Source: an uncultured Aquimarina sp.
GTDB taxonomy: Bacteria > Bacteroidota > Bacteroidia > Flavobacteriales > Flavobacteriaceae
DNA length: 14,088 bases
Assembly (NCBI GenBank): GCA_937958735.1
Contig: CALGNG010000054.1
Coordinates: 1 to 14,088 of the forward strand
Direction of reading: 5' to 3'
Shown piece by piece: positions 1,361 through 13,571 of this stretch. The position numbers were made by a program, and so were the translations under genes. Under the pieces are notes generated by a model, which was given only the letters and a program-made list of their open reading frames with translations, was not told where the DNA came from and did no database searches. How positions within the stretch are numbered: position 1 is the first letter of the stretch; each line of letters begins with the position of its first letter.

Positions 1361-1402
1361 AATAGCTAATTTAATAAATCTTTTAAGTTTTTAAACTTTT
1401 TT
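1361..1402 (-). repeat. 42-bp direct repeat, copy A (upstream of ABC-3C operon)
   Basis: Identical over 42 bases to 10002-10043 and in the same orientation. On its upstream side (for the minus strand) similarity continues after a 2-bp offset: both copies go on with AACGG, then an ATATAA-containing stretch, to about 1425. It contains the inverted repeat AAGTTT-TT-AAACTT (forward 1385-1398). It ends about 47 bp before the ATG of the ABC-3C effector gene, the same relative position as copy B before the OLD gene. Confidence 0.9.
1366..1396 (-). promoter_or_regulatory. Putative Bacteroidota-type promoter for the ABC-3C operon
   Basis: Inside repeat copy A the minus strand reads GTTT (1396-1393), 19 bp, then TAAATTAG (1373-1366). 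This approximates the Bacteroidota -33 (TTTG) and -7 (TAnnTTTG) boxes at normal spacing. The small palindrome overlaps the -33 region and could be an operator. The match is imperfect, so support comes mainly from its exact conservation at the other copy. Confidence 0.4.
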
Positions 1403-1571
1403 ATAACGGCATAAATATAATTTTAACACACTGATAGTACTACATTTTATCTACTCGATAGCTTTTTAGTAGGTTTTGCATCAAACCTATAGTAGCGCCA
1501 TAACTGATAACTTAAAAACTGATATACTATCACTTTTTTTGTAGTAATTTTTTCTATACACAAAACTAATC
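1403..1571. other. Intergenic spacer with inverted repeats between jetD and the ABC-3C promoter
   Basis: No coding potential is seen. The spacer holds a 7-bp stem, TAGGTTT (1470-1476) with AAACCTA (1483-1489), around the loop TGCATC. A wider inverted pair, TGATAGTA (1432-1439) and TACTATCA (1525-1532), encloses it. The palindrome TAGTACTA lies at 1435-1442. A T-run at 1534-1540 follows the outer arm on the plus strand. The stems could end jetD transcription on the minus strand, but no U-run follows them in that direction, so an intrinsic terminator is not demonstrated. Confidence 0.5.
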
Positions 1572-2450
1572 TCAGGATAATAAATTAGAACGTTTGTTAT
1601 CTGTTTGTATGTAATATTCTTGGTCTAGACCTTTTTTTTCTAATTTAATTATTTCAATCAAGTCTAAAATTTTTGATTCCTGTATTTTGTCAATTTTGAA
1701 ATTCACTTTTTGATTATCAAATCGTTCTCTATTACCATTATTTTTTAAATCTCTTTTAATATTCTCAGGAATAAAAAATGTTGCTTTTTCTGATAGATGC
1801 TTTTTATATTCGTTCAAGTAAATGCCAATTCCTGCAATATCGAAATCACCAAAATGCAAATAATTATTTGGGATAGAACTCATCCATTTTATAAAATCTT
1901 TATTTTGATTTTGAGGATAACGAGAAACAAACAAAGGGTTTATATTTTTAAATAAATATTTCTGTCCTTGAATTTGACTGAAATTTTTAGCATTCTCTAC
2001 TCCAATAACGGTTATTTCTTTTGGAATCCTGAAAGTTTCATAATCATGTATAAAAACAAAACTCCCTTTAATCGGATTAATGATTATAGCTTCATTATTC
2101 AGTTCAGCTTTTATAAAAGTATAACTATTCACTAAGAAGCCTTTAAAAGCTCTCTCTTTTGATTTTTTAGAATCTGTTGTAATCTTTACAAATTCTGCAC
2201 GAGTTGAATTTTCATTGTCTAAAGCCAAAATATAATTGTTCAAATCATTAATTTGTAACTGATTTGCTAGATATATATGTAAATCCGTTTTGTTTATTAA
2301 TTCTAGAGACTTTTTGTGTTTTCCTTTTCTGTAAATAATATTTTCAGAAACTAAATCGTCAATTAACTTGCTATTAACAAAACTATTAGGAATAGATTCT
2401 CCATTGATTAGCCGAACTAATACCTTTGCTATTTTTAATGTTAATTTCAT
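1572..2450 (-). CDS. jetD: JetD-like Toprim nuclease subunit of a Wadjet-like system
   Basis: A 292-residue soluble protein, last gene of the four-gene operon. Residues about 1-55 look like a winged helix (IAKVLVRLINGESIPNSFV... LVSENIIYRKGKHKK). Residues about 145-280 form a Toprim domain of the topoisomerase VI A/DUF2220 type: VIGVENAKNF supplies the catalytic Glu (E152), YLHFGDFDIAGIGIY supplies the D-x-D pair (D202, D204), and GLDQEYY near the C-terminus resembles the terminal QE motif of that family. In characterised Wadjet systems JetD is the nuclease that cuts circular DNA after loop extrusion by JetABC. Here the protein is about 100 residues shorter than the usual type I JetD, and the large DUF3322-type N-terminal region is reduced. 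Its ATG overlaps the jetC stop as TAATG at 2450, indicating coupled translation. Confidence 0.78.
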   Translation of the reverse strand: MKLTLKIAKVLVRLINGESIPNSFVNSKLIDDLVSENIIYRKGKHKKSLELINKTDLHIYLANQLQINDLNNYILALDNENSTRAEFVKITTDSKKSKERAFKGFLVNSYTFIKAELNNEAIIINPIKGSFVFIHDYETFRIPKEITVIGVENAKNFSQIQGQKYLFKNINPLFVSRYPQNQNKDFIKWMSSIPNNYLHFGDFDIAGIGIYLNEYKKHLSEKATFFIPENIKRDLKNNGNRERFDNQKVNFKIDKIQESKILDLIEIIKLEKKGLDQEYYIQTDNKRSNLLS

Positions 2451-5400
2451 TAATTAAGAACTTTGATATTTACTTTAATCAATCGATTAATTTTTGTGAT
2501 GTATTTTTTAATATTGCTTTTAGATTGTTCTTTGGCAAGTTTATATGTGTATTTATAATCTGTAGCATTTTGACTTGTTGGAGAACCATTAATTAGTAAA
2601 ATATTTCTTTCATTCGCAAATCTTAAAATCCCTTTTTGATTTGTAGGGTGAAGTGTACCTATTTCATCCATCATACAATGAAGCTTAAAGTCTTTAAATT
2701 TCTTTGAAGCATCAATTTTAAAAACATTTAATAGAGAAATATTAATCATAGCTTTAACCAAAATATCTGTACCGTTACTACCTACATTAGATAACTTTTC
2801 AACCCAACCAGAGTCATTATCATTCTCTATGATTCTAAACTGTAGATCAAAAGATTCTGACAACGTTAATTTTGTGTTTTTAGATTTTACTAATTCTTTG
2901 ACTAGTTGTTTTAATAATTCTACCGCTTTTTGATTTTTTGAATTACTTTCTGATGAAGTAAAAAGATTTGCTTCTCCTAGAGCAATACTGTTTTCATCAT
3001 TAAACTCTTTTATCTTAATTAATAACCTAACAATTGGATTTGAACTTTCTAAAGTTTTCATTTCCATTGTTTTTATAGCTTCTATAAAATTTTTACCAAG
3101 GAAATCATCATTGATTTTTTTAATTATTTTTTCAATATCTCCTTTTTTAGAGTTTAGCTCAGTTGTTTCTCTTCCTATTAAACGAATGATATGCGCAAAT
3201 CTATCATTCACACGTTTTTCATATTCGCTTATTTTATCCAATTCGATAAATTCGTTAAGTTCAGATGCAAAGTTTAAAAATTCAATATCTTCATTTAACT
3301 TTACTTTAAAACTAAATATATTCTGTTCACTAAAATTACCTGTAAATGCATTTGTAGATTGTTGTAATTCTTTAAATGTATCGATTCCTTTATAATGTTT
3401 ATCATTTATTTCCGCTATACTTGAGATAGCAGTTTTTGTCTCAATAAGTTCTCTAATTGGCTCAGAAAAATAAACATGAATGCTTTTATAAGTTTCTGAC
3501 TTTTCTTTAAACTCAATAAATTTATTTTCATCATTATCAAATTCATCAATTTTAGATTGTATTGATTTCACAAAATCTTCTTGTTTAGTATATTTTGAAT
3601 TGATTTTATTCAATTCAACTCTATGTTCATTAACTATTGAATCTTGTTTTTTTTCTAAACTAGTCCTATTAACTTTTAATTGGGGTACAATATCGAAAAG
3701 CTCTCTTTTGTCTTTGTTGTACTCAATAACAATTGTTTCGTTCTCTTTTATATAATTTAAGTCGTTTTCTATGTCTTTTAATCTATCATCAATTATACTG
3801 AGCCTTTTTGTATCAGCTCCTTTGTTGTCTAACTCTGAGGTTTGTTCTTTTTTAAGCTCTTGAATACGTTTATCTGATACTTCTTTACCATTTAAGATAG
3901 AAGTTTTTATTTCAGAAATAGTATTGTTTTTAATTTCCTCTAAAGATTTAATTTCAGAATCTCGCTCCTTTTCTTTTAAATTTATTTTACGTTTTATTCC
4001 TTTCTTAATAAGTGTCAGGCTCTCTTCTGCTTTTATTTTTTTTAAAGTAACCCTATCTAAATCATTTTCAATTTTTTGTGAAATAGCTTCTTTTTCCGAT
4101 TTAGCTTTTGAAATCCATTCATCTAAATCAATCTTATTTTTCTTTAACTTTTCTTCGTTTTGTGATATTGTATATTTATTTTCAGCAATACTTTCTTCAA
4201 GGTTATTTAGTTTTTTCTTAAATTTAATTTTCAGCTTTTGTAAACTATCGGCTGCATTTGTATTAAGTTGTTTAATAGTATTTTGAACTTCAACAATCTT
4301 ATTTTTATATTCTTCAATTTCTTGATTATATTCTTTGACAGTTTTAACACTATTTTTTAAGGTGTTTAAGTTTAACTCTACACCAAATAAAGTAGCTGAA
4401 TTACTATCAATTAATTTAGGATTTAGTTCTGTGTTAAATAGTACCTTATCTTCATCAATTACTTTACCTATGGTGTTTTGCCAATTAGAAATATTATTAT
4501 CATTTAGCCAACCGTAAAGAGAATATTTACTCTGCTGAATTTTATTTTCAATTTTTTCGATATTTACAGTTAGTTTTTGAACTTTTTCTGCCTCTTTTTC
4601 AATGGATATATTATTGGTTCTTTCAACTTCTTTTGTCTCTAATTCCCATTCTTTACGAATTATACTGGTTTGATTTGTTGAATTTAGAATTATACTCTTT
4701 GAACTAGATATTTTTTCATCAAGTGCTTTTTTCTTGTCTTTACATTTAGTGATTTCTGTTAAGAAAAATGTTTTATGTTTTAATTCTGATTTGTTTCTCT
4801 TTAGGATGTTTTTGTTTTCTTTTATTTTATCTACATCATTATATCCTTTGTCTACTTCATCTTTGTTTTCTTCTTTAATTTGATTTATTAACTTTTGGTA
4901 GTTATCAAATATTGAAGTTTTATTCTCTCCAAAATTACCCTGTATCTTATTGATTACTGCGTTTTGCGTATTGGTAAACTCTTGTTGCTGATTTTGAATT
5001 TGGGAAATGAGAGCTTGATATTTTTGACTGATTTCTGTGAATTTAGAAGTTAGAAGGTTTTTTTCATCTCCTAAAGTTTTTTGCTCAACAGTCAAAGCAT
5101 CTTTCTTGGCAACTTTTGAAATTATTAGATTGATGTTTTGATTATTGTATTTCGTTTGTTTTTGTTTTGCTTTTGCTAATTCTGTGGTGATTAATTTTAT
5201 ATCCGAAACAATATCTTGCTCTCTTCTTCGATGTGTTTTTGCTAAGTTTTCTCTTTTCTTAGATAGCTCATTTAATTCATTATTCTCTTTAGAATAACTA
5301 GAATGTAAAATTGGCTTTTCGTTTTCTATGAAATCCATTCTAGATGCTAATTCATAAGCTAGTTCTTTTTTTTCTCTTTTGAGAAAATTATAAATCCTAA

Positions 5401-6154
5401 ACCTGTCAATAATTTTGTCGGCTTGTTTTCTAACTACAATTTGTCCTTTTCTATTTTCTTTAAACCATATTTTAATATCATTAATTTGAGTTTCAAAATC
5501 ATTTAAATGATTTATAGAATAGTTCTCTATATCTATAACGAACTCTTCTTCATTAAGGGATTTTATAATGGTGTCTTTAATGAATTTTGCTTCTAAATTA
5601 GTATTAAGAAGTACATTTTGAATAGTTCTAGGTATATTTTGGTATTGCTTACTTTCTATTAACGCATATTTTTTGAGTTCGGGCTTTAAACCATTATTAT
5701 CCCCATAAATGATTCTACGAAAATCTTCATAACTCTTTATTAAATTGGTGTAATGAATGTCTTTTCCAAATGCATTTCTAATTTTATCCCAATTTTCAAA
5801 AGCTCTATTATTGTTATCAATGAATAACTCTCGCTTATACTCAGAATTAAAAAATCGAAATGCAACTTTACCATTTACTTTATAGGCTAAAACACAAAAA
5901 GGTATATTATCTTTTATAATTTCGTAAATAATATATGAATTTTGATATTGAAAATAATAGTCATCAAATCCTTTTTTTTCTCTAGGTATCCCAAGTTTTG
6001 TTTTATTTGCATTGTAGAAAAACAGAATAGCTCGAAGCAAGGTACTTTTCCCAACACCTTGAGTTCCTATTAAATGGACATTCCCATCTAATTCAATTTC
6101 TGCGTATTGTACAGATGCACTATTTATAAAAACTATTTTATTCAGGTATCTCAT
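2450..6154 (-). CDS. jetC: JetC-like SMC (MukB-like) ATPase of a Wadjet-like system
   Basis: A 1234-residue SMC-type ATPase. Walker A is LIGTQGVGKSTLL (G30 to T38, with K36). Two long Lys/Glu/Asn-rich coiled coils span roughly residues 265-545 and 605-1050. Between them lies a non-coiled insert with GWLNDNN (W549), IGKVIDED and TLFGVELNL (F590), the likely hinge. The C-terminal lobe has VGSNGTD (to D1130) where an ABC signature would sit and the Walker B HCMMDEIG (D1163, E1164), then LLINGSPTSQ as the switch region. This is the DUF3584/MukB-like class rather than canonical chromosomal Smc, whose signature is LSGGE. With JetA and JetB it is expected to form a condensin-like loop extruder that feeds plasmid DNA to JetD. 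It starts 17 bp inside the end of jetB and overlaps jetD by one base. Confidence 0.85.
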   Translation of the reverse strand: MRYLNKIVFINSASVQYAEIELDGNVHLIGTQGVGKSTLLRAILFFYNANKTKLGIPREKKGFDDYYFQYQNSYIIYEIIKDNIPFCVLAYKVNGKVAFRFFNSEYKRELFIDNNNRAFENWDKIRNAFGKDIHYTNLIKSYEDFRRIIYGDNNGLKPELKKYALIESKQYQNIPRTIQNVLLNTNLEAKFIKDTIIKSLNEEEFVIDIENYSINHLNDFETQINDIKIWFKENRKGQIVVRKQADKIIDRFRIYNFLKREKKELAYELASRMDFIENEKPILHSSYSKENNELNELSKKRENLAKTHRRREQDIVSDIKLITTELAKAKQKQTKYNNQNINLIISKVAKKDALTVEQKTLGDEKNLLTSKFTEISQKYQALISQIQNQQQEFTNTQNAVINKIQGNFGENKTSIFDNYQKLINQIKEENKDEVDKGYNDVDKIKENKNILKRNKSELKHKTFFLTEITKCKDKKKALDEKISSSKSIILNSTNQTSIIRKEWELETKEVERTNNISIEKEAEKVQKLTVNIEKIENKIQQSKYSLYGWLNDNNISNWQNTIGKVIDEDKVLFNTELNPKLIDSNSATLFGVELNLNTLKNSVKTVKEYNQEIEEYKNKIVEVQNTIKQLNTNAADSLQKLKIKFKKKLNNLEESIAENKYTISQNEEKLKKNKIDLDEWISKAKSEKEAISQKIENDLDRVTLKKIKAEESLTLIKKGIKRKINLKEKERDSEIKSLEEIKNNTISEIKTSILNGKEVSDKRIQELKKEQTSELDNKGADTKRLSIIDDRLKDIENDLNYIKENETIVIEYNKDKRELFDIVPQLKVNRTSLEKKQDSIVNEHRVELNKINSKYTKQEDFVKSIQSKIDEFDNDENKFIEFKEKSETYKSIHVYFSEPIRELIETKTAISSIAEINDKHYKGIDTFKELQQSTNAFTGNFSEQNIFSFKVKLNEDIEFLNFASELNEFIELDKISEYEKRVNDRFAHIIRLIGRETTELNSKKGDIEKIIKKINDDFLGKNFIEAIKTMEMKTLESSNPIVRLLIKIKEFNDENSIALGEANLFTSSESNSKNQKAVELLKQLVKELVKSKNTKLTLSESFDLQFRIIENDNDSGWVEKLSNVGSNGTDILVKAMINISLLNVFKIDASKKFKDFKLHCMMDEIGTLHPTNQKGILRFANERNILLINGSPTSQNATDYKYTYKLAKEQSKSNIKKYITKINRLIKVNIKVLN

Positions 6155-6710
6155 TTTCTATTTCTTCTGGAATATTAATAGCTATTATAATGTCTTTCAA
6201 ATAATTTAACGAGGTAAGTACTTTGTAAGTTTCTGAAATCTCATTTTCCAATGTTATAAAACTATCCTTTTCTAGTTTCTCAATTATTTTTTTTATTCTA
6301 TCTGAATAAATTTTTTTATCAACACCTATTTTCTTTAGTTGTTCTAGTTTTGTTTTTAAATCTGCATTGTTTTTTAGCTGATTTAAAATATCTGATGGGG
6401 AGAATCTAAAACCTACATCAAAAGAAGAATCAAAAGTTTTAAAGAAGTCTAGTATGTCAATCCAACTGAATGCTTTTTCTAGCTTCCTATCTAAGTCTGC
6501 ATTATTTTCTATTCGACTGAAATAGAAATATTCATTACCTTCTTCTAAGATGTAGTTAATTTTATGAAAGTATCCGTATAAATATTCAAATGTCTCTTCA
6601 TCTTCTAAAATCTTATAAAGTTTTTGAATGTCATTATCAGGACTGTTTGAGCATATGAATTGTCCTTTACGGAGCATGTCGAATATTTCTGATGTATATT
6701 TTGTAATCAT
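6138..6710 (-). CDS. jetB: JetB-like (MukE-like) winged-helix subunit of a Wadjet-like system
   Basis: A 190-residue acidic protein without signal peptide or membrane segment. Residues about 30-67 (LYKILEDEETFEYLYGYFHKI, then EGNEYFYFSR) look like a winged helix ending in an aromatic hairpin, the form seen in MukE/DUF4194 proteins. A second helical, winged-helix-like unit lies at about 135-180. In Wadjet and MukBEF-type complexes this subunit binds the kleisin and DNA. No catalytic motif is present, as expected for the family. The gene begins 6 bp after jetA ends, and its last 17 bp overlap jetC. The assignment depends on size, position between kleisin-like and SMC genes, and the fold pattern; direct sequence similarity is weak. 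Confidence 0.65.
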   Translation of the reverse strand: MITKYTSEIFDMLRKGQFICSNSPDNDIQKLYKILEDEETFEYLYGYFHKINYILEEGNEYFYFSRIENNADLDRKLEKAFSWIDILDFFKTFDSSFDVGFRFSPSDILNQLKNNADLKTKLEQLKKIGVDKKIYSDRIKKIIEKLEKDSFITLENEISETYKVLTSLNYLKDIIIAINIPEEIENEIPE

Positions 6711-6716
6711 TAAAAT

Positions 6717-7913
6717 CTATTTTGAAAATACCATAGCATACTCAATACCATTGGTTATTTGGAAATTATCTTTTATGTTCAATTCTTGTTCATATTGAGA
6801 AACGATTTGGCAGAAGATAGTTACTCGTTCATTAAAATGAACCTCTTTTAAAAAATCATAGTTTAAAATAAAATGAAATAAATTATCACTCGTAGCAGTA
6901 AAATGATTGCGAACCTCCTCTAAGTTTATCATTACTTCTTCCTCAATATTGTTTTCAAGATATTCAGTAGAAATACTATCCGCTATTTCTGGTTTAAACA
7001 GTAATCTGTCTTGATGCTTTTTAGATATTCTTTTAATTGCTTCGAAAGCTCGTTCATCTTCTCTAAGGAAATTAATAGACAAATTCAAAGGTTGATTTGT
7101 TCTTCCTTCAAAAATTAACTGATTTTTATTTGATACTATTTGTTTAATATCTGTTTCTGCTTCAACAGTAAAATTATCTTTTAAATATTTTAACTTTCGT
7201 AATTTCTCTAAAAATTTCCCTTGTTGTTTTATTTGATTTAGAAAATCAATTATCTGTTTTTCTATTTCAATTAGGTTATGTGAGCATTCTCCTAGCTGAT
7301 GCTTTAATTCAATAATAATTCGTTTCAACTCTTCATCTAAGGCTCTATTAAAAAAAGTTACTTCTTCCTCGTTAATAAGAGTTAGTGTTTGCTGTATCAA
7401 ATTTGTTACTATTGTTCTTTTCTCATCAAGATGCTCTAACTTTAATTGTTTGTTCTTGTAATTAGATTCGTTTTTAAAGGTGTTTTCAATATTTCTTCTT
7501 AAATCTACCACACTTCGTAGTGTGACAAGCCCCATATTTCTAAAGGTTTTCTTTATTAATTTTAAATATGAATATCTGCGATTTTCATTAGGCTCATTCA
7601 AAAAATATAGGATATGCTCTTTTATAGTTTTGATATTATCATCAATGTACGACAAGTTAATTTCTTCACTAACATACAGCACCTGTTCAAAGAATTCCAG
7701 AAATTGACCATCAAGTTCTAATAAGCCTCCATTTTCTCTTATTACAGATTTTTCTATTAACCTATCAATACGGTTTTCTTGGTAATCAACCAATTCTAGT
7801 GCATCACTCAATCTGTAATCAATGGATTTTCTCTTACTAAACATTTCAGATATTAGTTTCTCCTCTCTTTTTAAAGCGGTAACTAATTCTTTTATGTCAT
7901 TGAATGTGTTCAT
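6717..7913 (-). CDS. jetA: JetA-like (MukF-like kleisin) subunit of a Wadjet-like system
   Basis: A 398-residue, almost entirely helical, charged protein, first gene of the Jet operon. Residues about 25-80 (YRLSDALELVDYQENRIDRLIEKS... LLELDGQFLEFFEQVL) resemble the N-terminal winged helix of MukF/JetA. A long helical bundle or coiled coil follows (about 90-260), then a mixed C-terminal part (about 270-398) that could be the SMC-binding end. In this class of complexes the kleisin bridges the two SMC heads. No nuclease or ATPase motif is visible. A 118-bp gap separates it from the OLD gene upstream, and jetB begins 6 bp downstream. It could be another SMC-associated kleisin (MksF-like), but the terminal Toprim gene of the operon favours JetA. 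The length is shorter than the roughly 500 residues of type I JetA, so the Wadjet type is left open. Confidence 0.65.
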   Translation of the reverse strand: MNTFNDIKELVTALKREEKLISEMFSKRKSIDYRLSDALELVDYQENRIDRLIEKSVIRENGGLLELDGQFLEFFEQVLYVSEEINLSYIDDNIKTIKEHILYFLNEPNENRRYSYLKLIKKTFRNMGLVTLRSVVDLRRNIENTFKNESNYKNKQLKLEHLDEKRTIVTNLIQQTLTLINEEEVTFFNRALDEELKRIIIELKHQLGECSHNLIEIEKQIIDFLNQIKQQGKFLEKLRKLKYLKDNFTVEAETDIKQIVSNKNQLIFEGRTNQPLNLSINFLREDERAFEAIKRISKKHQDRLLFKPEIADSISTEYLENNIEEEVMINLEEVRNHFTATSDNLFHFILNYDFLKEVHFNERVTIFCQIVSQYEQELNIKDNFQITNGIEYAMVFSK

Positions 7914-8031
7914 CGTTTCATTTTTAATCTAAATTTCAATGTCTTGTATAACGTTAAATTATAATTTTCAAAACACTTCTTTTATTTTCCAATCAATTAT
8001 TTCAGAGCACGTCTCAAACCTACTTCTTAAC
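7914..8031 (-). other. 118-bp gap between OLD gene and jetA
   Basis: A spacer in an otherwise overlapping gene block. No second copy of the 42-bp repeat and no strong hairpin is seen. The minus strand contains TTTTG near 7967 and AT-rich sequence downstream, but no convincing -7 box at the right spacing. jetABCD may therefore be read through from the OLD promoter or have a weak promoter of its own. Confidence 0.35.
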
Positions 8032-9948
8032 TTATTCGAATAGTGAATTCATTTCTTTAAAAACATTTTCAAAATTATCTAATGTTTGGGGTGAAAAATA
8101 CTCTTTGCTAACACCTAGTTTAACAAGTTCATTTGCTGGTCTGTAATGATTAAACCTATCTTTTCCAATATGTTTATTAATTTGAATAATAATCTGATTT
8201 ATATCTGTATTCAATTCAGTTTCTTTTATATCTGTAATGTCTTTAAATGCAGAGTTAAATAATTTTAAATAATCCCCTTTAACAAATAAATCTTCAAGGT
8301 CTGCCTTAGAAAAATCTTTAATAAACTCATCAAAAAACCTTATTTTATTTTTATGAATGATTTTTTCAGAAATCATTTTATCCATTTTCGCTTTTCCTTT
8401 TGCATCTGTATAAGAATCGAGTAAACAAGCAATTTCTAAATTCGAACCTCTAAGTAAAGACACAAATGTGCCAACTTTCTCTAACCCTCCAGTTGGAACA
8501 ATAGTTATATCTTCTCTTAAATATTCTCTTTTTTCAGATTCTAAAATACCTGAAATTGCAGTTAAAATGATTAGATCAGATACACCTTCTACGAGTAGAT
8601 TTTTTTTGTTAACAAAAAGATTTTGTGCTATATCATAACCAAGAGAAGCTTGAAGAGGGAATAATGTATTTGGGTCTTTTTCTTGTATGCTTTCAGATAT
8701 TATAGAACCTTTATCGGTTTCTAATACAGTTCTTACACGATTCAGACTATTTGATGCAATCATAAATGGTGAATGAGTTGAATAGATTATTTGATAATCC
8801 GCAGACAAATCTTCTAGAAACCTTAATAAATCATCTTGAGCGGAAGCATGTAAATTTAAACCGGGCTCGTCTAAAAGTAATATATAATTTGAATTTTGGT
8901 CTTCTTGAATTCGTTTGAACCAGACTAAAAATGAGAAAAACCAATTAAAACCTTTACTTCTATTTTTCAATGAAAGAGAAACTCCTTTACTTTTTACCCT
9001 TATATCTAAAATATGCTCTACAATTCTAGAGCCACCATATGAATCATTCTTTTCTTTTTTATCTATTCTAAAAGTTATCTGTAAATTTTTGTTCGTAGCC
9101 CAATACTTAAATAACTCTTCTGAAATTATAGCTTCTGTAGCTTCTAATTCTGCTATAAAATCTTCGAAATTATTACTTCTTAAAATTTCAGAAGTACTTA
9201 TGTCTGCTAATTCGAATAAAGCTTTAGCAGTTTTCATTTCACTTTCTTCTAGATTATTATTCTGTAATTTTTCAATACTAATTCTAGATGGTAAAGAAAA
9301 ATATTCATCATAATACAAAAACTTGGGCTTATTTGGTTTTAGGTATTCTCTTGAGACATATTCACTAATCAAATCTTGCTCCCAATTCAAAATGTTTACA
9401 AAATATTTATCAAATGATTTAAGTTCGTCGCTATGTTTATCCTCAGAATATTCTTTTTTAAGTTCTTCTAAATCTTCTTTTGATTCAATTGTTAACAATT
9501 TATCATTTAAATTTTTGCTTGATATTCCGAGCTTATTTGTTTGATGTTCTATAAATTTCAGTTTATTTATAGCTACCCCTAAATAAGAATCAGTATTGTC
9601 GTATTTAGTGATAATTCGAAATTCTTCAAAGTTTAAAGTATCTTTTCCTAGTTCTTCTTCTATAGTAGATTTTAATTCTTGGTCAACTACATAAGTACAA
9701 ATAATTGCCTCTGGAATATTTCCAGATTTATCCATTTTCTTTTTTTGCTTTCTCGGATAATCGTGTGTAGTATTATATTTGAAAGCATCATCATTTTGGA
9801 AATAATTTGTCTTTGCTATTGCTTCTAATGCAGAAGTTTTACCTGATTCATTCATCCCCACAAGAATTGTAATATCTTTTTCAATCTCAATTTTTTGTGG
9901 GCTCTCAAATGATTTGAATTTTAATATTTCTACATTTTTTAATTTCAT
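8032..9948 (-). CDS. OLD-family ATP-dependent nuclease (ABC ATPase plus Toprim)
   Basis: A 638-residue protein with the two-domain layout of OLD (overcoming lysogenization defect) and GajA-like nucleases. ATPase: Walker A LVGMNESGKTSAL (G31-T38, K37); an OLD-type signature region SLKNRSKGFNWFFSF (about 326-340); Walker B YILLLDEPGLNLH (D360, E361); switch YSTHSPFMI (H392). Toprim: LLVEGVSDLIIL (E454), PTGG (485-488) and CLLDSYTDAKGK (D511, D515). The acidic pair is spaced D-x3-D rather than D-x-D. Such proteins cleave DNA and act in phage defence. The length is normal for the family. No UvrD-like helicase (GajB) gene lies beside it, so this is not a complete Gabija system in this window; a stand-alone OLD or a partner of the Jet genes is possible. 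The start follows the A-rich leader ATTAAAAATAG and lies 53 bp downstream of repeat copy B. Confidence 0.88.
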   Translation of the reverse strand: MKLKNVEILKFKSFESPQKIEIEKDITILVGMNESGKTSALEAIAKTNYFQNDDAFKYNTTHDYPRKQKKKMDKSGNIPEAIICTYVVDQELKSTIEEELGKDTLNFEEFRIITKYDNTDSYLGVAINKLKFIEHQTNKLGISSKNLNDKLLTIESKEDLEELKKEYSEDKHSDELKSFDKYFVNILNWEQDLISEYVSREYLKPNKPKFLYYDEYFSLPSRISIEKLQNNNLEESEMKTAKALFELADISTSEILRSNNFEDFIAELEATEAIISEELFKYWATNKNLQITFRIDKKEKNDSYGGSRIVEHILDIRVKSKGVSLSLKNRSKGFNWFFSFLVWFKRIQEDQNSNYILLLDEPGLNLHASAQDDLLRFLEDLSADYQIIYSTHSPFMIASNSLNRVRTVLETDKGSIISESIQEKDPNTLFPLQASLGYDIAQNLFVNKKNLLVEGVSDLIILTAISGILESEKREYLREDITIVPTGGLEKVGTFVSLLRGSNLEIACLLDSYTDAKGKAKMDKMISEKIIHKNKIRFFDEFIKDFSKADLEDLFVKGDYLKLFNSAFKDITDIKETELNTDINQIIIQINKHIGKDRFNHYRPANELVKLGVSKEYFSPQTLDNFENVFKEMNSLFE

Positions 9949-10001
9949 CTATTTTTAATTTGGAGGTTTTAGTTTTTCGGTAACTATATATTAATTACGC
10001 G

Positions 10002-10043
10002 AATAGCTAATTTAATAAATCTTTTAAGTTTTTAAACTTTTTT
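10002..10043 (-). repeat. 42-bp direct repeat, copy B (upstream of OLD/Jet genes)
   Basis: Identical to 1361-1402, with further similarity (AACGG and ATATAA blocks) to about 10064. It holds the same AAGTTT-TT-AAACTT inverted repeat (forward 10026-10039). The two copies are 8641 bp apart in the same orientation and bracket exactly the OLD gene plus the four Jet genes. Confidence 0.9.
10007..10037 (-). promoter_or_regulatory. Putative Bacteroidota-type promoter for the OLD gene (and perhaps jetABCD)
   Basis: The minus strand has GTTT (10037-10034), a 19-bp spacer and TAAATTAG (10014-10007), identical to copy A. The distance from the -7 box to the OLD ATG is 58 bp, against 51 bp in copy A. It is an imperfect match to TTTG/TAnnTTTG, supported by conservation between copies and by position. 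Confidence 0.4.
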
Positions 10044-10255
10044 AACGGTATGTATATAAATTTATTTATCGTAATAAAATTGAAGACTCATTTATAGAAA
10101 ATCAATTTCAGACAATCATTTTTAACCAATCTTAATCGCTTTTTTTTACTGCACTTAAAAATTGTTCAAACACTATTTCAAACACACAACCCCCTTCCAA
10201 ACACTACCCGTTCAAAGCCAATTAAAGTCATAAAACCTCCTTCTTAAAAAGCACT

Positions 10256-10316
10256 GTATTCTCAAAATACATTCGTGTAAAACAAGCTAAAAGTCAGCTT
10301 AAAACCACACACGAAT
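10256..10316 (+). promoter_or_regulatory. Tandem inverted repeats in the traE leader
   Basis: A small hairpin, GTATT (10256-10260) with AATAC (10266-10270), directly abuts a larger nested one. In the larger, ATTCGTGT (10271-10278) pairs perfectly with ACACGAAT (10309-10316), and inside it AAGCT (10284-10288) pairs with AGCTT (10296-10300). There is no T-run after the stem, so this is not a plain terminator. An operator or a structured 5' leader of the tra transcript fits better. Confidence 0.5.
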
Positions 10317-10381
10317 GAAAGAGAAAATCTTCATAAAACAGCACTTTGAATACGGATAATTTTTTACTGAATACTTCCATC

Positions 10382-10401
10382 TGCCTGAATTCAATCAGGC
10401 A
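10382..10401 (+). promoter_or_regulatory. Hairpin TGCCTGA/TCAGGCA upstream of traE
   Basis: A perfect 7-bp stem, TGCCTGA (10382-10388) and TCAGGCA (10395-10401), with the loop ATTCAA, 36 bp before the traE ATG. No U-run follows. It is the most GC-rich element of the leader and could be a regulator site or an RNA stem that affects traE expression. Confidence 0.5.
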
Positions 10402-10437
10402 CTTCTCAGCATTTAATTCATTAAAAAATATTCAAAA

Positions 10438-10743
10438 ATGAAAACTAAAATTTATAAAATCATCTTTAGTGTCATCTCCTTTTTCTTATACAGTTTGGGA
10501 GCATATGCACAAAATGGTGTGGGCGGTATTAATCGTGCTACACAAATGGTTACTTCCTATTTTGACCCAGCCACTAAACTGATCTATGCCATTGGTGCAG
10601 TGGTGGGTTTAATTGGCGGTGTAAAAGTATACAACAAATTCTCATCAGGCGACCCTGACACTTCTAAAACGGCAGCATCGTGGTTTGGAGCATGTATTTT
10701 CTTAATTGTTTCAGCAACCATTTTACGTTCATTTTTCCTATAA
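10438..10743 (+). CDS. traE: Conjugative transposon protein TraE (DUF4134), VirB2-position membrane protein
   Basis: A 101-residue secreted or membrane protein. Residues 1-24 form a signal peptide (KTKIYK, then a hydrophobic core, ending LGAYA before QNGVGG). Two membrane helices follow at about 47-66 (LIYAIGAVVGLIGGVKVY) and 81-100 (SWFGACIFLIVSATILRSFF). Size, topology and the GGV-x-x-Y...GDPDTSK loop fit the DUF4134 family, TraE of Bacteroidota conjugative transposons. Its place directly before TraF and TraG matches the VirB2-VirB3-VirB4 order, so a pilin-like role in the mating apparatus is inferred. The traF ATG follows three bases after its TAA. The start is preceded by the A-rich stretch AATATTCAAAA rather than a Shine-Dalgarno sequence, as is common in this phylum. 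Confidence 0.9.
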   Translation: MKTKIYKIIFSVISFFLYSLGAYAQNGVGGINRATQMVTSYFDPATKLIYAIGAVVGLIGGVKVYNKFSSGDPDTSKTAASWFGACIFLIVSATILRSFFL

Positions 10744-10746
10744 GCT

Positions 10747-11073
10747 ATGGCAGATTTTCAAATCAACAAAGGCATAGGAAGAACCGTAGAGTTTAAAGGT
10801 CTAAAAGCCCAGTACCTGTTCATTTTTGCAGGTGGGCTTTTAGGGCTATTTATTGCCGTAGTCATCTTGTATATGATTGGCATTAACCAATACATATGCT
10901 TAACACTTGGACTTATAAGTGCTGGAGTTTTAATATGGAAAACCTTCGCTTTAAATACTAAATATGGCGAACACGGTTTAATGAAAGTTTCGGCTCGTAA
11001 AAGGCATCCACAATACATCTCTCGTAACCATACAGTGCTGTCTCTTATTAATTTTCAAAATCAAAGCCGATGA
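10747..11073 (+). CDS. traF: Conjugative transposon protein TraF (DUF4133), VirB3-like
   Basis: A 108-residue inner-membrane protein. It has a short cytoplasmic N-terminus (INKGIGRTVEFKGLKAQY), two adjacent membrane helices at about 22-45 and 48-66, and a basic C-terminal tail with NTKYGEHGLMK and KRHPQYI. This is the pattern of DUF4133, TraF of Bacteroidota conjugative elements, equivalent in place to VirB3, which anchors the VirB4-type ATPase at the membrane. It follows traE after 3 bp, and its TGA overlaps the traG ATG (ATGA, 11070-11073), so TraF and TraG are probably made in coupled fashion. Confidence 0.9.
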   Translation: MADFQINKGIGRTVEFKGLKAQYLFIFAGGLLGLFIAVVILYMIGINQYICLTLGLISAGVLIWKTFALNTKYGEHGLMKVSARKRHPQYISRNHTVLSLINFQNQSR

Positions 11074-13571
11074 GACCGATAGCCAAACGTAATCCATTTG
11101 GAGATAAATTTCCAATCTGGGCAGTAGAACATAATTGTATCATTAGTAAAGATGCAGATATCACCATCGCTTTTAAAGTGACGTTACCCGAACTTTTTAC
11201 CATAACCGCAAAGGAATATGAAGCTATCCATGCAGCTTGGCACAAAGCCATTAAAGTATTGCCCGATTATAGCATTGTACATAAACAGGATTGGTATTTA
11301 AAAGAAAACTATGAGCCAGAACTTCAGAAAGAGGATCTAAGCTTTTTGTCTCGAAGTTTTGAAAAGCATTTTAACGAACGTCCTTTTTTAGCACATCACT
11401 GTTATGTGTATGTGACCAAAACTACCAAAGAACGAATGCGTCGTCAAAGTAGTTTTTCTACCCTTACTCGTAAGCATTTAGTTCCAAAGGAAATTCAAGA
11501 TCAAGAAACCATGCTTAAGTTCATGGAATCGGTAGACCAGTTTGAGCGGATTATCAATGATTCTGGTTTTGTTGCCTTGGAGCGTTTAACGGATACCGAC
11601 ATTATTGGCTCTGATACTAAAAAAGGACTTTTAGAAGAGTACCTATCGCTTTCTTCTGAGAAAGATAATTTTACATTGCAAGATATTCATTTGGGTGTAG
11701 ATGAGGTGAAGGTTGGAGATAAGGTATTGTGTTTACACACCTTATCAGATACCGAAGATTTACCCAATGAAGTAAGCACCGATAAACGTTTTGAGCGACT
11801 ATCTACTGACAGAAGTGATTGCCGATTGTCCTTTGCTTCACCTGTAGGACTCTTATTGAATTGCAACCATATTTACAATCAATATATTTTTATTGATAAT
11901 AGCGATGAAAATTTACGCAAGTTTGAAAAATCGGCTCGTAATATGCATTCGCTAGGCAAGTATAGCCGAAGCAATCAAATTAATAAAGAGTGGATTGAGA
12001 ATTACCTCAATGAAGCACATTCAAACGGATTGACCTCTGTTCGTTGCCATTGTAATGTGTTGGCATGGAGTGATGATCGTGGAAAACTCCGCCAAATTAA
12101 AAATGAGGTAGGTAGCCAATTGGCATTAATGGAATGCCGTCCACATCACAACACCATAGATACCGCAACTTTATATTGGGCAGGCATGGCAGGCAATGCT
12201 GGTGATTTTCCTGCCGAAGAAAGCTTTTATACGTTTATAGACCCTGCGCTGTGTTTCTTCACACAAGAAACCAATTACCGCAACTCACTATCTCCTTTCG
12301 GAATTAAAATGGTGGACAGATTAACAGGCAAACCCATCCATTTAGATATTTCCGATTTACCAATGAAAAAAGGAATCATCACTAATCGAAACAAGTTTAT
12401 ACTTGGTCCTTCGGGAAGTGGGAAATCTTTTTTTACCAATCATTTAATTCGACAGTATTATGAGCAAGGCACGCATGTGTTGTTGGTAGATACAGGAAAT
12501 AGTTATCAAGGTTTATGCGAACTCGTTCGTCAGAAAACTGGTGGTAAGGACGGGGTCTATTTTACGTATACGGAAGAAAACCCAATTGCTTTTAACCCTT
12601 TTTACACAGACGATGGGGTGTTTGATATTGAAAAAAGAGAAAGTATTAAAACACTGATTATGACTTTGTGGAAACGAGATGATGAACCCGCTTCTCGTTC
12701 GGAAGAAGTAGCTTTATCTAATGTCGTGAATTTATTTATCAAAAAGATTCAAAAAGATAGCTCTACAGAAGTGTCTTTCAACGGATTTTATGCCTTTGCC
12801 AAAACCGATTACAAAACCATTTTAGAAGAAAAATCGGTACGAGAAAAGGATTTTGATTTGGCAAATTTCTTAAATGTATTAGAGCCTTATTACAAAGGAG
12901 GGGAATATGATTACCTGCTGAATTCCACAGAAGAATTGGACTTATTAAGCAAAAGATTCATTGTTTTTGAAATTGATGCGATTAAAGATCATAAGATTCT
13001 ATTTCCCATAGTTACCATTATCATTATGGAGGTCTTCATTAACAAGATGCGAAGATTAACAGGGATTCGTAAACTCATCTTAATTGAGGAAGCATGGAAA
13101 GCGATTGCTAAGGAAGGCATGGCAGAATACATCAAATACTTATTTAAAACAGTACGTAAGTTTTTTGGAGAAGCCATTGTAGTTACTCAAGAAGTAGACG
13201 ACATTATTCAATCGCCTATTGTTAAGGAATCCATTATCAATAATTCGGATTGTAAAATACTGCTTGACCAGCGTAAGTATATGAACAAATTCGATGGTAT
13301 TCAAGAAATGTTAGGGCTTACCGAAAAGGAGAAAGCACAAATTTTATCGATCAATCTGAACAATCATCCAAGTCGATTATACAAGGAGGTTTGGATTGGT
13401 TTGGGTGGCACGCAATCGGCAGTATATGCCACCGAAGTAAGCTCCGAAGAATACCTGACCTACACCACAGAAGAAACCGAAAAAATGAAGGTTTTAGCAC
13501 TTGCCAAAGCGCAAGGAGGAAATATAGAATCTGCCATTAAGCAATTGGCAGAACAGCGGAAACAATCTTAA
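11070..13571 (+). CDS. traG: Conjugation system ATPase TraG (VirB4 family)
   Basis: An 833-residue VirB4-type ATPase that powers pilus assembly and DNA transfer at the inner membrane. Residues about 1-60 (RPIAKRNPFGDKFPIWAVEHNCI) match the DUF3875 N-terminal region of Bacteroidota TraG proteins. The middle (60-430) is the VirB4 N-terminal domain. The P-loop domain has Walker A FILGPSGSGKSFF (G446-S453, K452), then HVLLVDTGNSYQGLCELV. Walker B is KLILIEEAWKAIA (669-674 LILIEE), followed by AIVVTQEVDDI and NNSDCKILLDQ, typical of VirB4 C-terminal lobes. Length is full for the family with no frameshift. The gene is clearly richer in G and C than the minus-strand block. The start overlaps the traF stop. 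Confidence 0.95.
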   Translation: MRPIAKRNPFGDKFPIWAVEHNCIISKDADITIAFKVTLPELFTITAKEYEAIHAAWHKAIKVLPDYSIVHKQDWYLKENYEPELQKEDLSFLSRSFEKHFNERPFLAHHCYVYVTKTTKERMRRQSSFSTLTRKHLVPKEIQDQETMLKFMESVDQFERIINDSGFVALERLTDTDIIGSDTKKGLLEEYLSLSSEKDNFTLQDIHLGVDEVKVGDKVLCLHTLSDTEDLPNEVSTDKRFERLSTDRSDCRLSFASPVGLLLNCNHIYNQYIFIDNSDENLRKFEKSARNMHSLGKYSRSNQINKEWIENYLNEAHSNGLTSVRCHCNVLAWSDDRGKLRQIKNEVGSQLALMECRPHHNTIDTATLYWAGMAGNAGDFPAEESFYTFIDPALCFFTQETNYRNSLSPFGIKMVDRLTGKPIHLDISDLPMKKGIITNRNKFILGPSGSGKSFFTNHLIRQYYEQGTHVLLVDTGNSYQGLCELVRQKTGGKDGVYFTYTEENPIAFNPFYTDDGVFDIEKRESIKTLIMTLWKRDDEPASRSEEVALSNVVNLFIKKIQKDSSTEVSFNGFYAFAKTDYKTILEEKSVREKDFDLANFLNVLEPYYKGGEYDYLLNSTEELDLLSKRFIVFEIDAIKDHKILFPIVTIIIMEVFINKMRRLTGIRKLILIEEAWKAIAKEGMAEYIKYLFKTVRKFFGEAIVVTQEVDDIIQSPIVKESIINNSDCKILLDQRKYMNKFDGIQEMLGLTEKEKAQILSINLNNHPSRLYKEVWIGLGGTQSAVYATEVSSEEYLTYTTEETEKMKVLALAKAQGGNIESAIKQLAEQRKQS

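Follow-up and report, generated by a model that had tools for sequence, protein, structure and literature searches.

The window, the stretch of DNA analysed here, comprises a complete contig of 14088 bp that ends on both sides, from the genome assembly of an uncultured Aquimarina species (Flavobacteriaceae) that amounts to 2.18 Mb and is 55.75% complete. It carries a 42-bp sequence twice, at 1361-1402 and at 10002-10043, each time shortly ahead of genes for an anti-phage system. Direct comparison bears out the original prediction that the copies are identical (42 of 42 bases) and in the same orientation, both on the minus strand, with differing flanks. The identity reaches one base further, to an A at 1403 and 10044, and a 54-bp register around the two copies is 91% identical. 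With up to three mismatches allowed, the 42-mer occurs at only these two places in the window, which none of 200 dinucleotide-preserving shuffles reproduced. The predicted distances to the first start codons were 47 and 53 bases; the second is right (to the ATG at 9948), while the first is 46 bases (to the ATG at 1314). In AT-rich DNA from a draft metagenome assembly, a chance repeat or an assembly artefact has to be considered, but the shuffles, the differing flanks and the recurrence of the motif in independent genomes leave it a negligible probability.

The first gene after copy 2 encodes an OLD-like nuclease (8032-9948, minus strand, as are all the defence genes), recognised by its AAA ATPase and TOPRIM domains. 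Its protein was matched at E ≤ 1e-60 in its own genome only among 66 genomes of the genus, so no donor was found. There follows a Jet (Wadjet) set in which domains of the B, C and D types are present: a JetB/MksE-like protein (6138-6710; PF21980), a JetC-like SMC protein with DUF3584 (2450-6154; PF12128; PADLOC JetC, E 7e-7) and a probable JetD (1572-2450; PF23947, DUF7281), a label that we presume from its position. The 398-residue product of 6717-7913, without a match in Pfam or PADLOC, is probably JetA and is named by its position only. Copy 1 stands ahead of an ABC-3C-type set. Its first gene (379-1314) encodes a CTD10-like protein, which matches PADLOC PDC-M68A and falls just under the Pfam cut-off (PF20275, 26.5 vs 28.1 bits), and its second (143-382) encodes middle component 6 (MC6; PF20293, over the cut-off); the contig stops ahead of any third gene or ABC ATPase. 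With these reservations on JetA, CTD10 and the third gene, the OLD/Jet and ABC-3C labels of the original prediction hold. On the plus strand, 10438-13571 contains traE-, traF- and traG-like genes in that order (PF13572, PF13571, PF19044), as in conjugative transposons of the CTnDOT type, a backbone that is shared with contig C38 of another genome, G059.

In its own assembly the 42-mer was found (E ≤ 0.001) as the two window copies only, yet in the genus the minus-strand repeat aligns, together with its surroundings, with many sites. A 60-base query matched 14 of the 66 genus genomes, its own included, at E ≤ 1e-6 (weaker matches, from 1e-3 to 1e-6, served solely for an initial context scan), and a degenerate core pattern had 38 matching stretches in the genome collection. 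Pattern matches outside the Flavobacteriaceae, in Prevotella and Pelagibacteraceae, were taken as chance, both loci having been given the site profile scan only, as was a single weak plasmid match (E 0.6). The 31-base core had no match in IMG/VR, and an Rfam scan of the window and eight loci gave none.

What this sequence is elsewhere can be seen in relatives, at ten loci with an intact gene end of a kind that we call platforms. There, the 42-mer is the last 14 codons and the stop of a tyrosine recombinase gene. The encoded C-terminus reads TEIYTHVAxKxxxxxKDLLx, and the proteins have 375-376 residues, save for three of the ten that deviate at their start (328, 357 and 394 residues). Between 15 and 25 bases past the stop lies a palindrome such as ATATAGTTACCATGGTAACTATAT, followed by TGTTR, and we interpret this palindrome and its GTTR, which adjoin the integrase gene, as a putative attI site. 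Synonymous conservation of the integrase gene is highest in its last 14 codons (rank 1 of 364 overlapping windows, 0.815 vs a mean of 0.592), so that the DNA itself is constrained beyond its protein coding. In four noncoding copies from conjugative elements the 42-mer is 82-100% identical and its flanks 29-47%, a comparison without gaps that understates flank identity.

These findings bear on the proposal that both defence systems answer to one regulator, with the 42-mer as their common promoter or operator. Its orientation and its similar spacing from both first genes (46 and 53 bases) fit such a role, and the platform sites too lie shortly ahead of a gene. However, the claimed -33/-7-type pair does no better than shuffled sequence: the best match to TTG/TAnnTTTG, the one motif form tried, is 7 of 9 positions in each copy, a score that 46% and 57% of 1000 shuffles equal or exceed. 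Moreover, at other loci this DNA forms the 3' end of an integrase gene, ahead of aconitase, bestrophin, restriction-modification and other genes, and the promoter reading is therefore unsupported. Dispersal at many unrelated sites, one of the checks proposed with the original prediction, was found across the genus, and on this a common regulator fails as well, even if the incomplete own assembly holds two copies only. We consider it improbable. A cassette promoter within attI, as is known in other integrons, is possible.

Downstream of the putative attI, the platforms carry gene cassettes. In 45 loci with enough sequence for the comparison, the first ten bases of the cassette recur inverted at its far end, exactly so in 23 and not in the remaining 22; among swapped pairs this occurred in 40 of 2160. 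An attC-type site starts at this far end; it extends from NNNYAAC to GTTRNNN, and its arms are complementary. Right ends were set by stem score, which yielded 28 sites from 48 loci, and 17 of one length class were used to build a covariance model. At E ≤ 0.01 this model has 248 matches in 47 sources, with the 17 matching by construction. Five of six attC strands folded as DNA beat nearly all of their shuffles (z from -2.6 to -7.5), and in the sixth 37 of 200 shuffles were equally good (z -0.8). When 49 integrase loci of Flavobacteriaceae were scanned with an attC profile, all 185 matches lay downstream of the integrase stop on the integrase strand and none on the opposite strand; at least one was present in 41 of the 49 loci, and at least two in 34. 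It is because of these one-sided, one-strand matches, together with the identity to the integrase tail, that we regard the 42-mer as the core of an attI-type site of a Flavobacteriaceae integron, in which the first cassette begins at GTTR. Judged by their sequences, the platforms are integrons in layout, every layout feature examined being in accord. Four platform contigs (L189, L190, L203 and L210) stop 161-205 bases past the integrase stop, as expected if attI and attC repeats break assemblies.

Under a strict definition the platforms are better termed integron-like, because the IntI-specific additional domain near patch III, when looked for in the platform integrase, was not found. Between the parts that both proteins share, the platform integrase has 23 residues vs 65 in IntI4, and three platform proteins score 175-189 bits with the integron-integrase model vs a cut-off of 265. 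No match over this cut-off was found in 16 genomes, the best ones skipping model positions of about 181-237. The integrase has about 105 residues ahead of its recombinase domains. Its best NCBIfam match is the XerA-type family NF040815 (one of three proteins over the cut-off), and its best relative in the PDB is 4a8e, which we take to be of the Pyrococcus type. Homologues at E ≤ 1e-90 occur in 49 of 299 Flavobacteriaceae genomes (45 of 236 genera), and a phylum-wide draw of 296 genomes gave matches in three, all of them Flavobacteriaceae. Such proteins already bear the NCBI name "site-specific tyrosine recombinase/integron integrase"; the name is thus known, the arrays are not. In two genomes (G224 and G343), several tyrosine recombinases of 298-305 residues with near-identical scores align with the C-terminal portion of the integron-integrase model, which looks like a multiplying element.

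Next to the integrase, in 44 of the 49 loci, lies a divergent gene for a cysteine-rich protein. It encodes about 125 residues (in L054 at 3460-3825, plus strand) with C..C and C...C motifs and the conserved core FTHYWKN..YLF.YEYGF. Three examples gave no Pfam match above the cut-off and one that was compared with the PDB gave no relative; the protein is likely to be an accessory or regulator of the platform.

In the window, pieces of such a platform stand alone. The attachment-site profile matches 10063-9978 around copy 2 (E 2.8e-11) and 1423-1358 around copy 1 (E 3.9e-9), and with a longer profile, built from the integrase end, the matched stretches measure 64 bases at copy 1 and 85 at copy 2. 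The extended site 2 (9978-10063, minus strand) consists of a decayed integrase tail, the 42-mer, which is noncoding here (10002-10043, minus strand), and the left half of the palindrome (ATATATAGTTACC); it is 81% identical to the intact platform in G059 over 85 aligned columns. Copy 1 (1361-1402, minus strand) has the same core and lies within a site block at 1361-1539, minus strand, that includes it and the DNA upstream of it. In both copies, then, the 42-mer is exact and matched by the profile, yet the palindrome is halved in copy 2 and gone in copy 1. By eye, a short inverted repeat, TTATGCC/GGCATAA, is seen across the 42-mer of copy 1 (window 1403-1571 and flanks).

Copies without an integrase also occur in other genomes. 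The isolate 637-3Z has 28 sites on five contigs, where a decayed integrase tail and palindrome precede successive genes, and three canonical attC matches on one of its contigs. Complementarity of cassette ends in 18 pairs amounts to 44 of 108 positions vs 33.4 at random (reached by 391 of 20000 randomisations). It resides in the nine short pairs of up to 2.3 kb, a split picked after the data had been seen (30 of 54 vs 16.4, reached by 5 of 20000), while the nine long pairs are without such a signal (14 of 54 vs 17.0). One 637-3Z contig (C44), unlike the others, has sites in both orientations. Outside conjugative elements, the genes past the sites include those for aconitase, bestrophin, ATP-grasp, type I restriction-modification, HATPase, GIY-YIG and Schlafen-type proteins, and several without a match, in a sample of 20 hand-picked proteins of which seven came from G059:C38 and L104, a contig discussed below. 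In Aquimarina Aq78 and A. macrocephali, the start of the same 186-residue protein follows a diverged site, and the gene upstream is the same.

The window was compared with G059:C38. The backbones (window 10099-13528) are 88.8% identical over 3432 columns, and window 1539-1361 is 73% identical over 199 columns to the site block of G059:C38 (3430-3627 of its excerpt, L042). Between these parts the window has 8559 bp (1540-10098) with site 2, the OLD gene and the Jet genes that are absent from G059:C38, where 25 bases at the junction are unaligned. An earlier suggestion that the repeats are the ends of a recombining module is upheld insofar as both copies are copies of a recombinase attachment site at module heads and the block is absent from the orthologous element; the claim that its boundaries fall exactly at the repeats is not, as the additional DNA spans 1540-10098. 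Past its site block G059:C38 encodes a DdmD-like protein (E 1.4e-40), a 664-residue protein and a 149-residue protein (PADLOC candidate PDC-M35B), before a second site; 0.7 kb beyond this lie the C-terminal portion of a reverse transcriptase of the DRT type and its partner. The 664-residue protein (L042, 7193-9184), directly after the DdmD-like gene and without a Pfam or PADLOC match, might at a guess be a diverged DdmE partner, by its position. The reverse transcriptase (RT_UG19; L042, 10695-11642) matches profile positions 225-519 of 562 only, so its start is missing or its frame broken. A third element contig, L104, comes from a genome labelled Tenacibaculum. Here a site whose palindrome is intact precedes a retron III-A pair, beside transfer-region genes like those of L138. 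As far as the sequences tell, two integrase-tail/attI-type pieces, cut off from the integrase gene, thus each head a defence module in the conjugative element of the window, and the cargo differs at one element edge between the window and G059:C38.

Taking these results together, we favour a reading, with a probability of roughly 0.78, in which the 42-mer is an attI-type core, the pieces in the window head defence modules, and these modules entered or were exchanged by recombination at the copies, which have been truncated and by now are probably weak or inactive. The platform integrase would act on attI and attC; pieces of its tail with attI would have become separate sites, some within conjugative elements; and modules would have entered or been exchanged at such copies through an integrase acting in trans, or, alternatively, would have been moved by homologous recombination between copies. 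Capture by this integrase is what we infer from the arrangement, and it is doubtful that the window copies are active today.

Several results weigh against this reading. Half of the palindrome is kept in site 2 and none in site 1. The site block of G059 matches the distal window site and not the one adjacent to the backbone, which a plain attI x attC insertion would not lead one to expect. No attC was found in the window (best 11.3 bits, E 0.24) or, at E ≤ 0.01, in G059:C38, L104 and three other elements, and the own assembly, incomplete as it is, gave no close integrase (best 33% identity). Inspection by eye found no inverse ends of the OLD-Jet block, and within one strain neither an excision product nor an empty-site product was seen. 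As an integron, the window presents two attI-type copies only, with neither integrase nor attC.

Some of the same observations suit a different history, in which the copies are dead relics and the modules arrived without the integrase, at a hot spot for cargo next to traE, by ordinary recombination of the homologous or illegitimate kind. The truncated palindromes, the lack of attC in the window and the elements examined and the match of the G059 site block to the distal copy all fit it, as do three other elements sharing traE, which carry other cargo at the same edge and no site that we could see. What it leaves unaccounted for is that the 42-mer itself is kept, and that a site heads cargo with defence-like genes next (by PADLOC or Pfam) in all five copies of three element contigs (the window, G059:C38 and L104), a count to be read with the transfer-gene scan, which covered part of the orphan-site contigs only. 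We regard such a history as less likely.

Known systems offer parallels, each with differences. The platforms share with integrons (IntI/attI/attC) an integrase gene, an adjoining attI-type site ending in GTTR, tandem cassettes, inverse core ends and one-strand attC-type sites; they differ in an integrase that lacks the IntI-specific insertion, has the additional N-terminal residues and is transcribed towards attI, and in the cysteine-rich neighbour. By one account, transcription towards attI is known only as an atypical arrangement in Treponema (PMC3607928). Unlike XerA-type recombinases, the platform integrase adjoins attC cassette arrays and not a lone chromosome-resolution site. Truncated attI copies (delta-attI) act as recombination sites beside cassettes in class 1 and 2 integrons, according to PMC12901181; those described here differ in carrying the tail of the integrase gene, in occurring in Flavobacteriaceae within a conjugative element, and in being known from sequence. 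CTnDOT-type conjugative transposons likewise have variable cargo alongside traE-, traF- and traG-like genes, but in the window, G059:C38 and L104 relics of integron attI-type sites head that cargo. Integron cassettes of Vibrio carry defence genes and resemble the present case in making anti-phage functions exchangeable units; in the window, these are whole multi-gene operons, without attC and with a different integrase.

Integrons, and defence genes in integrons, are kinds already known. In published surveys, integrons are searched for by the IntI-specific domain (PMC9668308). For Bacteroidetes proper, IntegronFinder 2.0 listed In0 only, and then a single complete integron, that of Salinibacter ruber (PMC9024848); older surveys mention intI or integrons for this phylum but give no detail. 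The openly licensed papers searched, preprints and subscription papers excluded, yielded no account of Aquimarina integrons, of the 42-mer or of an integrase of this class.

The wider interpretation, which we hold to be slightly better than an even bet, is that of a separate integron class in Flavobacteriaceae, where a XerA-like integrase would act on attC without the IntI-specific helix that is held to be required for this, by means of its own N-terminal region and the conserved cysteine-rich partner. Pieces of tail and attI could travel in such a class because attI overlaps the integrase tail, and they would seed capture sites in conjugative elements and stack anti-phage operons there. Single-strand recombination came with the I2 helix in the account of PMC7790495; if the integrase acts on attC, a second route has to be added to this account, and a large reservoir of gene cassettes from marine bacteria is opened to searching. 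The arrangement also suggests how whole systems (Jet, OLD, ABC-3C-type, DdmD-like, DRT and retron) could swap at one edge of a conjugative element.

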